A stretch of DNA of 64,000 nt, from NCBI RefSeq assembly GCF_008326425.1, contig NZ_AP018929.1:1750875-1814874 (forward strand), in the 5' to 3' direction. The notes beneath the pieces are model-generated. The model saw only the letters and a list, made by a program, of their open reading frames with translations, was not told where the DNA came from and did not search any database. Both the position numbers and the translations under genes were made by a program. The stretch comes from Sulfuracidifex tepidarius. Its GTDB lineage: Archaea; Thermoproteota; Thermoprotei_A; Sulfolobales; Sulfolobaceae. Below are positions 53,928 through 59,773 of this stretch, piece by piece (position 1 is the stretch's first letter; each line of letters begins with the position of its first letter).

Positions 53928-54554
53928 ATGCTTAACGTCCTAGAGATGATGAACATAATTGGAATAATTTCATTTACAATATCTGGGACTAGCAAGGGGG
54001 TTAAGAAAGAGTTAGACCTATTTGGTACCATAGTGTTGGGAATAGCAACGAGCTACGCTGGTGGTATTGTAGCAGACCTCCTAGTAGGTGTAATACCTCC
54101 AACTATATTGAGACAATGGCAACTTCTATTGCTTTCAATATCTGTCTCTATCACGACCTTTTTTTATTATAAACAACTTAACAGGAAATTTCTGGCGTTG
54201 GTTCTCAAAGTTTCCGATGCCATAGGTTTAGCTACTTTCGCTGCATATGGGGCTGACCTAGCTTATTCCCATGGGTTTAGCTTGGTAACGGTTGCAATGA
54301 TATCCAGCATAGTTGCGTCTGGAGGCGGTGTTCTCAGGGATATTCTGGTTAACGATATTCCTCTCATTCTCACAAAGGAGATATACGCTACTGCAGCTTT
54401 AGGCGGTGGAATAGTATATTACCTTGTGGCATCGATCTCAAATCAGGGATATGCCACACTAATTACAATTTTTACTGTGGTCACAATAAGGATCTTTGCA
54501 ATAAAATATAACCTGCATCTACCTGTAATTAAGGCGGAAGTAGGGAATAGGTGA
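53928..54554 (+). CDS. TRIC-type (UPF0126) trimeric cation channel family protein
   Basis: 208 residues with seven membrane spans made of two repeats, each with a GxxxRD- or GG-type kink: NIIGIISFTISGTSKGVKKE and YAGGIVADLLVGVIPP in the first, KVSDAIGLATFAAYGADLAY and ASGGGVLRDILVNDIPLILT in the second. This matches the prokaryotic UPF0126/TRIC family of monovalent cation channels. Length is typical. The stop lies within the outer end of a decayed IS605 fragment. Confidence 0.87.
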   Translation: MLNVLEMMNIIGIISFTISGTSKGVKKELDLFGTIVLGIATSYAGGIVADLLVGVIPPTILRQWQLLLLSISVSITTFFYYKQLNRKFLALVLKVSDAIGLATFAAYGADLAYSHGFSLVTVAMISSIVASGGGVLRDILVNDIPLILTKEIYATAALGGGIVYYLVASISNQGYATLITIFTVVTIRIFAIKYNLHLPVIKAEVGNR

Positions 54555-54870
54555 ACTACTCTGACCTCACGGACAGAGGCTTTCTGTTTCATAGCTCTGT
54601 CATGCCCGTGACTAGACCATGGGTAGAGGACGTAGCTCCACACTGGTCGTTTCGACCTGATCTTGTCAAACGTTAAGGGAAACCTTATAGTCGCGGTCTG
54701 TAGTCCAACCACAGGGGCATGAACAGACGCGGTCTTAAAGGGTGAGGCCTTGCTTCATGCGTCCGCAACTAGCACACGTTCAGGAAGTGCATGCAGGGTT
54801 GATCAAGGTGATGGGGATATGAACGGCCCCACTCATAAGCTGTACAACAAGTAGCGATTGCTTCCACAAC
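54543..54870 (-). pseudogene. decayed tnpB (IS200/IS605 family), 3' part with right end
   Basis: On the minus strand one frame reads TCASCGRMKQGLTL, stop, DRVCSCPCGWTTDRDYKVSL, which is the zinc ribbon and RuvC-III motif of TnpB from Sulfolobales IS605 elements (CxxC...CxC/CxxCG...DRDxNxSLN), followed by VETTSVELRPLP as in their C-terminus. Several stops interrupt it. The right-end sequence GAGCTATGAAACAGAAAGC (54597-54579) follows, with a short hairpin beyond it. The element is inactive. Confidence 0.72.
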
Positions 54871-57354: not shown

Positions 57355-57883
57355 AAAGATATATCTAAAATATTTAAGTTCTTCTTTCTCTGTATAATTA
57401 GTAATTTCATTGTTGATATATAATAATTTTTACGTATAAATTAAATAATCTTTATCTTCATTTTATTAAAATAAACTAAGAGGATAAGCTTGTGCTCCGT
57501 GGAGAGTAATCAAGGTAACTGCTAGGTATTTGCACTAGGGCAAAGTTTTGTTGGAAAGGGATTCAATAGTCCCTCTTAAAATTGTGAGAAAGGTGGATGA
57601 GAGGGTAGAGGTGTTTCCCTCGACTAGCCCCAATAAGCTAAGGGTAACTGTGTATGATCCTTAGGGGAGGTGTCCATGGCGGAATTAGAAGTAATTAAAA
57701 AATAAGCATAAGTTACACCATGGCTAAACACATATAAAATAAGAATTATGAGAACTTTAAGGTTCTAGAAACATGATTATTTTTTGGTGTAATATATTCT
57801 TAAGAAGATAATATTTAACTTTTATTTTACTTGTTTATTTTAGAGCTCTAATTACTGAGGGTAATTAAGGAACTAGTTTGATG
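57355..57883. other. intergenic region with a plus-strand gene relic and a hairpin
   Basis: 529 bases. From about 57540 to 57660 the plus strand has an open stretch, PLKIVRKVDERVEVFPSTSP then NKLRVTVYDP and a stop, which looks like the broken end of an unknown gene. The AT-rich right side has a perfect hairpin TAATTAC-TGAGG-GTAATTA (57849-57867), 17 bases beyond the stop of the TnpB-like gene. Confidence 0.4.
57849..57867 (-). terminator. hairpin after the TnpB-like gene
   Basis: Seven-base perfect stem with a five-base loop (TGAGG) starting 17 bases downstream of the tnpB-like stop. It may be a terminator or the stem of an RNA that overlaps the gene end. Confidence 0.35.
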
Positions 57884-58726
57884 TCAACAAGAATAGTAGC
57901 ACCTTAATGCTATATTGAACGCTGCGTTGAAGTCCCTATCGGCCTTGTAACCGCATGCAGGGCATACGAAAATTGAGCCGAGGACTTCACCTTTCTTGTA
58001 TCCGCAGTTAGAGCATACTTTCGAAGTGTTATATGGTTCTAGTCTCCTATACCTTATACCCCTCTTGTATAACTCTGTCTCCAGAGCATTTTGAATCGTC
58101 TTCAGCCCTCTCCCTATCTTGTTGTCGTAAAGTCTGAGGTCTTCCATAGCTACAACACGCGGGTTTAACTCCTCTATGAACCTTACAGCTTCGTTTGTCT
58201 GAAACCTCACCTTATCTCTTATCGCCTGAAGGTGAGAATACCCCTGATTTTCTCCCAGATATCTAGCGAAGTCTTCTTTCATTAAGTCGCTCCCGAAATA
58301 CCTTACCTTCCACAACTTTCCATCTATCAGTGAAACTATAGTTATTAAATGCCTTATTCCCACGTCTATACCTACAACCACTTTCTTGCTCTCGTAGGCT
58401 AAGAACACCTTTATACCATCTGACATGTCTACTATAGCGTAGAGTGGTTCACCCATCTCTACTACTCCCTCCACAACTGTATTGTAATCTTTCAACCTCA
58501 CCTTGTTTTCACTTACCCTTTGAACTTCAACTGGGCCGAGTCTTACAGGCCCTTTTCCTTGGATCGAAGAGATTACCTCCCTTGGTATAGATGGAGGTGG
58601 AGAGAACTTTCCTCCCTCCATCTTCCTCATGGCAGTAGAGTAAGCCCTAAAGTAACAGATGTCCTGATAAATAGTTTTTAACTTACCAAAATCTATTATC
58701 TTTACAGCTATGAGTTGTTCTTTCAT
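57884..58726 (-). CDS. compact TnpB-like RuvC nuclease, operon-embedded
   Basis: 280 residues. The C-terminal two thirds are a TnpB RuvC domain: VVVGIDVGIRHLITIVSL (aspartate 121), RVVAMEDLRLYDNKIGRG (glutamate 195), the zinc ribbon CSNCGYK...CPACGY (cysteines 238, 241, 255, 258) and KADRDFNAAFNIALR (aspartate 265). All catalytic residues are present. Usual TnpB proteins are about 370-430 residues; here the N-terminal 115 residues have a short strand-rich unit and lack the large helical insertion. It is 19 bases behind an 87-residue gene in a host-type operon with an amidotransferase, and no transposase TnpA or clear element ends are seen. A domesticated nuclease is possible. Confidence 0.82.
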   Translation of the reverse strand: MKEQLIAVKIIDFGKLKTIYQDICYFRAYSTAMRKMEGGKFSPPPSIPREVISSIQGKGPVRLGPVEVQRVSENKVRLKDYNTVVEGVVEMGEPLYAIVDMSDGIKVFLAYESKKVVVGIDVGIRHLITIVSLIDGKLWKVRYFGSDLMKEDFARYLGENQGYSHLQAIRDKVRFQTNEAVRFIEELNPRVVAMEDLRLYDNKIGRGLKTIQNALETELYKRGIRYRRLEPYNTSKVCSNCGYKKGEVLGSIFVCPACGYKADRDFNAAFNIALRCYYSC

Positions 58727-58745: not shown

Positions 58746-59009
58746 TTACTTAAGTGTTTGAAGGACTACGTTTACTAGTCCCTGAGGCATTCCTTCCATT
58801 TCCTTTACAACTTCCATACTCCCTTCTGTGCTGTCGAAAGATTTAACGTATTCTTCCTTACACCCATCTATCTTGAATACTGAAACTTCTTTCACCGAGT
58901 TAGTCGGCATTATTGCCAAATATACTGCGAATCCCTTGCATGGCTTTTGAGAGATTATGAAACCGTTCTCATCTGTATACCTTACACTTTTTGCGATTAC
59001 GCTTTCCAT
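58746..59009 (-). CDS. small uncharacterised protein upstream of the TnpB-like gene
   Basis: 87 residues, not recognised. It reads VRYTDENGFIISQKPCKGFA, AIMPTNSVKEVSVFKIDGCK and then VVKEMEGMPQGLVNVVLQTL. Two cysteines and an alpha/beta pattern are visible, with no membrane segment. It lies 56 bases after the amidotransferase and 19 bases before the TnpB-like gene, all on the minus strand, so it is probably translated from the same message. Confidence 0.65.
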   Translation of the reverse strand: MESVIAKSVRYTDENGFIISQKPCKGFAVYLAIMPTNSVKEVSVFKIDGCKEEYVKSFDSTEGSMEVVKEMEGMPQGLVNVVLQTLK

Positions 59010-59065: not shown

Positions 59066-59773
59066 TTACAATTCTTTAAACCCAATGGGAACTCTGTCGA
59101 GTTTATGGTCGGGCAAGTGCATGGCTACTGAGGAAGACATACAGTAATTTTCGTTACAATAGATGTGGTAATACTGTTCTGACTTCTCCTTCATGGCGTT
59201 AGGGTTAAAGGAATGCAGGACTATTAGTCTAGTCTGCTTTCCCTTCACGTATAATAAGGCCGAATTCAAACTGGATGAGAAGTCCTTTATCCTAGAGTAT
59301 TCCTCCTTGAACGCCTCATAGGGTTCTAAACCGGAGTTCACGTAGTCGGCTATGTCCTCCAAGACCATGTAGCTGTCGGTATACGGTCTAAGAGGATCCC
59401 TGAACGCTTTTCTATTGACAGAGCCGTTATGGGCGAAGAAGATATCGTAGCCATTAGCTCTAGTATGATATGGATGGGCATGGGGTAATCCAAGTAAGAA
59501 GGACTTACCGGCCTTTCTCACATGGAGAATTCCTATTACCTCATCTCCGTCAAGGTGAATAAGGTTAAAGAAATCATCCTTGAATATCGGTTTAGAGCTT
59601 CTATAATAAAAAGAACTCAAATCATCACCGTTTCTGATTAATGCAACTATCCCCCAGCCGTCTGGATGCCCACCGTAAATCGACAAATTGTCATGTTCTG
59701 CAGATAGCTTGATTGCTTCTAAAACTTGTTTATCCAATTCTCCTTTTACATGAAATGCAAGAATCCTGCACAT
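59066..59773 (-). CDS. class II glutamine amidotransferase (YafJ/Gat-type)
   Basis: 235 residues. After removal of the first methionine, cysteine 2 (MCRILAFHVKG) is the nucleophile. Further glutaminase signatures are GGHPDGWGIVALI, ILHVRKAG and IFFAHNGSVNRKAF. No synthase domain is attached, so it resembles the free-standing YafJ-like proteins whose acceptor is unknown. It is preceded two bases upstream by a possible 29-residue gene that itself overlaps ribokinase, giving a tight chain with ribokinase and ThiD. Confidence 0.87.
   Translation of the reverse strand: MCRILAFHVKGELDKQVLEAIKLSAEHDNLSIYGGHPDGWGIVALIRNGDDLSSFYYRSSKPIFKDDFFNLIHLDGDEVIGILHVRKAGKSFLLGLPHAHPYHTRANGYDIFFAHNGSVNRKAFRDPLRPYTDSYMVLEDIADYVNSGLEPYEAFKEEYSRIKDFSSSLNSALLYVKGKQTRLIVLHSFNPNAMKEKSEQYYHIYCNENYCMSSSVAMHLPDHKLDRVPIGFKEL

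Follow-up and report, generated by a model that had tools for sequence, protein, structure and literature searches.

We analysed a window of 64,000 nucleotides from the genome of the archaeon Sulfuracidifex tepidarius (contig NZ_AP018929.1, positions 1,750,875 to 1,814,874 of the forward strand), which carries a compact gene for a protein resembling the TnpB nucleases of insertion sequences (IS). The gene was confirmed as an open reading frame on the minus strand coding for 280 residues, the length given in a preliminary description made from the letters alone. That description was also exact about the gaps at this locus, 19 bases from the nuclease gene to an 87-residue gene and then 56 bases to a gene for a class-II glutamine amidotransferase (Table 1).

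Table 1. Features at the locus of the compact TnpB-like gene, in coordinates of the window
Feature	Position	Strand	Remarks
Predicted compact TnpB-like nuclease, 280 aa, almost certainly domesticated	57884-58726	-	N-terminal lobe, residues 1-112; RuvC/TNB, residues 113-280
N-terminal lobe, residues 1-112	58391-58726	-	Predicted strand, long helix 15-37, short helix 49-55 and five strands; only in this family
Predicted RuvC nuclease with inserted TNB zinc ribbon, residues 113-280	57887-58390	-	D121, E195, D265; C238, C241, C255, C258
87-aa gene	58746-59009	-	No Pfam match; homologues at just 6 of 30 loci, each located between the genes for the nuclease and the amidotransferase
Class-II glutamine amidotransferase	59066-59773	-	Neighbour of the nuclease gene at 26 of 30 loci

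In a Pfam scan of the protein only the Cas12f1-like TNB domain (PF07282) scored above its own cut-off (65.8 bits, cut-off 26.3), and this domain was found in all 30 members of the family of orthologues described below. The NCBIfam guided_TnpB model gave a score of 60.8, below its cut-off of 100, and a profile-profile comparison matched residues 111-272 to TnpBs with a probability of 99.5%. The three acidic residues and the four zinc cysteines (two CxxC pairs), whose presence had been reported beforehand, are invariant in all 30 orthologues. In an alignment they line up with the D/E/D catalytic triad and the zinc ribbon of TnpB-type sequences. Their spacing within the family is rigid, with 73-74 residues from D to E and 42 residues from E to the first CxxC in all members.

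The structure of the protein was predicted with AlphaFold2 from a 34-row alignment (mean predicted local distance difference test score, pLDDT, 82.7; predicted template modelling score 0.62); this model replaced an earlier, poor one made from two sequences (pLDDT 42). The elements of the N-terminal lobe follow each other as listed in Table 1 and lead into the RuvC fold, and the nuclease half shows an RNase H-like fold with an acidic active site. Residues 115-280 of the model matched AsCas12f best (PDB 8j1j, Z score 16.2 over 157 residues), and also the RuvC resolvase of T. thermophilus (PDB 4ld0, Z score 14.0 over 134 residues) and ISDra2 TnpB (PDB 8h1j, Z score 13.3). A search of a viral structure library returned transposases, TnpB-like proteins and RuvC, and no evident equal of the compact form.

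Full-length orthologues (39-92% identity) were found in a search of 197 genomes of the order and were confined to the Sulfolobaceae. Since the nuclease half attracts every TnpB, the copies were recounted with a profile of the N-terminal lobe only, which gave exactly one match each in 30 of the 31 Sulfolobaceae genomes and, among 398 genomes of the phylum, no match outside this family. All 28 Sulfolobaceae genomes that are at least 90% complete carry one orthologue; the sole genome without a match is 79% complete. For canonical TnpBs, by contrast, the number of scored matches in a genome ranged from 0 to 38 (PADLOC model PDLC01039), and some of these matches contained internal stops. This model is named Csx1, a misleading label, as it matches canonical TnpBs in numbers across the family; a Csx1 identity was rejected for that reason. 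Genome G022 has kept its single orthologue and has no match to a canonical TnpB, and 11 of the 28 near-complete genomes lack the Y1 transposase TnpA.

In S. tepidarius itself the other matches were ordinary TnpBs or fragments of these (27-47% identity over part of the protein). No near-identical second copy was found in this genome; the preliminary description had named many such copies as an observation that would speak against domestication. Its claim that neither TnpA nor a right end lies by the gene was borne out: the sole Y1 TnpA match in the genome lies some 965 kb from it, the one place in the window with a right-end-like motif is 54551-54572, and no element ends or TnpA were found associated with the gene. 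Thus none of the marks of a mobile element (ends, TnpA, several copies, patchy spread) was seen.

The preliminary description had proposed to look for syntenic orthologues and for purifying selection, and both were found. At 26 of the 30 loci the nuclease gene immediately follows the amidotransferase gene on its downstream side, whether or not the 87-residue gene intervenes, and at most loci the block extends through a metallo-beta-lactamase-fold gene, pfkB, thiD, a Cas4-like nuclease gene and a glycosyltransferase gene. The opposite flank differs between genera, and four loci have kept the gene in another setting. The gene tree recovered every genus and required 9 changes for 10 genera, which is the minimum, and a fully supported branch separated the family from 22 TnpBs, three of which were from S. 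tepidarius. The ratio of nonsynonymous to synonymous substitution rates (dN/dS) was about 0.01-0.1 in the pairs with usable dS, with one near-identical pair, with few substitutions, at 0.37. The nuclease half was mostly under stronger constraint than the half with the N-terminal lobe. Values for the neighbouring amidotransferase, pfkB, thiD and GT2 genes were similar.

One copy per genome throughout the family, conserved synteny, a tree that follows the genera, purifying selection and the absence of element ends together argue that the gene is almost certainly domesticated and not a stray IS gene, as had been suggested for this locus. A single TnpB capture, no later than the common ancestor of the Sulfolobaceae sampled, would account for its origin, the captured gene having become a vertically inherited core gene.

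Only 112-122 residues precede the catalytic D in the family, compared with 178-215 in ordinary TnpBs, in agreement with the earlier statement that the large N-terminal helical part is missing. In ISDra2 TnpB the WED domain consists of residues 1-12 and 117-176 and the REC domain of residues 13-116, which form four helices; the transposon-adjacent motif (TAM) is read by Y52, S56, K76, F77 and Q80 in REC and by T123 and N124 in WED (PMC10097598). The structure prediction that had been proposed for the missing lobe showed that the REC-equivalent stretch is cut down to about 45 residues in one long and one short helix, against 104 residues in four helices in ISDra2 TnpB. A full four-helix REC with TAM-reading residues was therefore not found. 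The model suggests that the lobe is WED-like with a reduced REC, an assignment made by topology only; its profile did not match the profiles of TnpB N-terminal lobes.

The stems of the guide RNA (omegaRNA) of ISDra2 TnpB rest on basic residues of the RuvC helices (PMC10097598). For the RuvC segment that runs from the first acidic motif to the second, the net charge has a median of 0 (-5 to +2) in the compact family and of +12.5 (+8 to +17) in 20 TnpBs; for the N-terminal lobe the medians are +3 (0 to 5) and +19.5 (14 to 33), respectively. The charges of three TnpBs of S. tepidarius fall with those of the other TnpBs, so the low charges of the RuvC segment and N-terminal lobe are not a habit of the host proteome.

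Signs of an omegaRNA at the 3' end of the gene were also lacking. Synonymous differences between orthologues were not reduced over the last 40 codons (0.58, compared with 0.52 for the gene), which led us to reject an omegaRNA inside the 3' coding end. In several genera the gene and a convergent one overlap at their ends, by 4 bases, so that the stop codon leaves no room for an omegaRNA there. An Rfam scan for RNA at the locus gave nothing credible. At the other end of the gene, synonymous sites in the first 25 codons are more conserved between orthologues than in the rest of the gene; thiD behaves nearly the same, so a special 5' signal was set aside in favour of what is probably ordinary start-of-gene constraint.

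Downstream of the nuclease gene, the segment 57505-57731 is the remnant of another, mobile transposase, coding for the C-terminal tail of a 442-residue protein that has up to 67 matches in one related genome; a 77% identical copy of the segment is present elsewhere in the S. tepidarius genome. A candidate RNA gene at 57480-57760 was rejected, as it has no Rfam match, lacks a counterpart in the interval flanked by the same two genes in genome G066 and encodes this transposase tail. Judged by its sequence, 57505-57731 is not the guide RNA of the nuclease gene. In the close relative G183 (locus L067) the stop codon of the orthologue is followed, at a distance of no more than about 30 bases, by what seems to be the IS605-type right end of another element with a C-terminal TnpB fragment, oppositely oriented. 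The Cas4-like gene of the conserved block encodes a PD-(D/E)XK nuclease related to PDB 4ic1; it lies approximately six genes upstream, is part of the block at 18 loci (L040-L065) and is missing from it in the genus of the window.

No paper describing the gene was found in the open-access literature. Processing resembling that of an omegaRNA has been described in S. acidocaldarius at Saci_1941, an IS-type tnpB, which is probably a different gene from the orthologue. The annotation of Saci_0266 is PhoU-like, and in genome G042 the orthologue has a PhoU-like gene three genes away; from this the S. acidocaldarius orthologue should be near Saci_0269.

With a probability of roughly one half, we interpret the family as descended from a TnpB that was domesticated once, in the distant past, and became a guide-less RuvC/TNB nuclease that is catalytically competent and serves a core function in the cell. 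Such an enzyme would be metal-dependent and would work without omegaRNA, recognising its substrate by shape (single-stranded, branched or flapped nucleic acid) instead of by a guide-matched sequence, and might have a housekeeping role, for example in DNA repair, recombination or replication. Somewhat more tentatively, we suggest that throughout this archaeal family a TnpB descendant has kept its nuclease, dropped RNA guidance and become a nuclease directed by structure, with a central part in genome maintenance. Genome maintenance appears likelier than defence because the gene is a core gene that survives rearranged surroundings and sits in every near-complete genome. The two roles offered in the preliminary description thus fared less well than its view of the gene's origin: an RNA-guided regulator would lack the REC helices, the basic omegaRNA-binding surface and a conserved 3' RNA, and a defence nuclease would be expected to show the patchy spread usual for defence genes and not that of a universal, syntenic core gene. 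Several points weigh against a guide-free enzyme. The whole protein is basic, with an isoelectric point of about 9; the arguments from charge and length are indirect; the model was built from few sequences, with lower reliability at about residues 41-60 and 150-170; and a partner protein or an RNA acting in trans could replace the missing parts.

The most serious alternative is that the protein is still RNA-guided: its guide would be encoded at another place, and RNA or a partner protein would stand in for the absent REC and basic helices. Its TnpB ancestry and intact active site would fit, and RNA can stand in for protein lobes, as in IscB, which has no REC and uses its own RNA (PMC10097598). 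However, the basic surfaces are lost, REC is cut down and the usual place holds no RNA, and we consider this unlikely. A ribonuclease whose RuvC site now processes cellular RNA, an extension of the processing of its own transcript by TnpB, seems a little less probable still. The 5' end of an omegaRNA transcript can be processed by its own TnpB (Nety et al. 2023, summarised in PMC12558985), and a metallo-beta-lactamase-fold gene is part of the same conserved block, but nothing specific points to RNA substrates and the RNA-binding basic surfaces are lost.

TldR is a domesticated, nuclease-dead TnpB (PMC13418256), and a similar nucleic-acid-binding regulator or scaffold, for which cleavage is irrelevant, might be suspected from the compact form and the conserved host operon. 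The hallmark of TldR, a degenerate RuvC active site, was not found: D121, E195 and D265 have remained invariant over deep divergence, which is unexpected if catalysis is dispensable and makes this explanation improbable. That the gene is an ordinary IS605-type TnpB, decayed or shortened and not domesticated, is already contradicted and can be given hardly any weight. The TNB domain and the overall similarity to TnpB would agree with it, but synteny, tree and selection do not, nor does a copy number that is always one, even in G022 and in the genomes that lack Y1 TnpA.

The guide-less nuclease that we favour shares its parts with several known systems. With ISDra2-type TnpB of IS200/IS605 and IS607 elements it has in common the RuvC D/E/D triad, the TNB zinc ribbon and the fold of residues 115-280, and it differs in its reduced REC, in having no basic omegaRNA-binding surface and no 3' RNA, and in its vertical inheritance as one copy per genome without element ends or TnpA. 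Cas12f, represented by AsCas12f, is the best structural likeness of the nuclease half, but has more than 400 residues compared with 280, whereas the compact family has a reduced N-terminal lobe and housekeeping genes as its conserved neighbours. The RuvC Holliday-junction resolvase shares the RNase H-like fold, and its guide-free recognition of structure is proposed here as an analogy; it has no zinc ribbon and no such N-terminal lobe, and by sequence the family is related to TnpB. TldR is likewise derived from TnpB and domesticated, but has kept the guide and lost the nuclease, whereas in the present family the active site is preserved and the guide apparatus seems to be gone.

To our knowledge, the TnpB domestications described so far (CRISPR Cas12 and TldR) keep the guide. 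The sequence evidence presented here points to strong selection having preserved the nuclease while the guide machinery was lost; if true, this would be the opposite of TldR, which retained guidance but not the nuclease. The gene has been kept by every near-complete Sulfolobaceae genome searched, those of genetically tractable hosts included, which makes it testable of what use a TnpB nuclease is to a cell without its guide. Automatic 'transposase' labels may therefore hide a core gene of these archaea.
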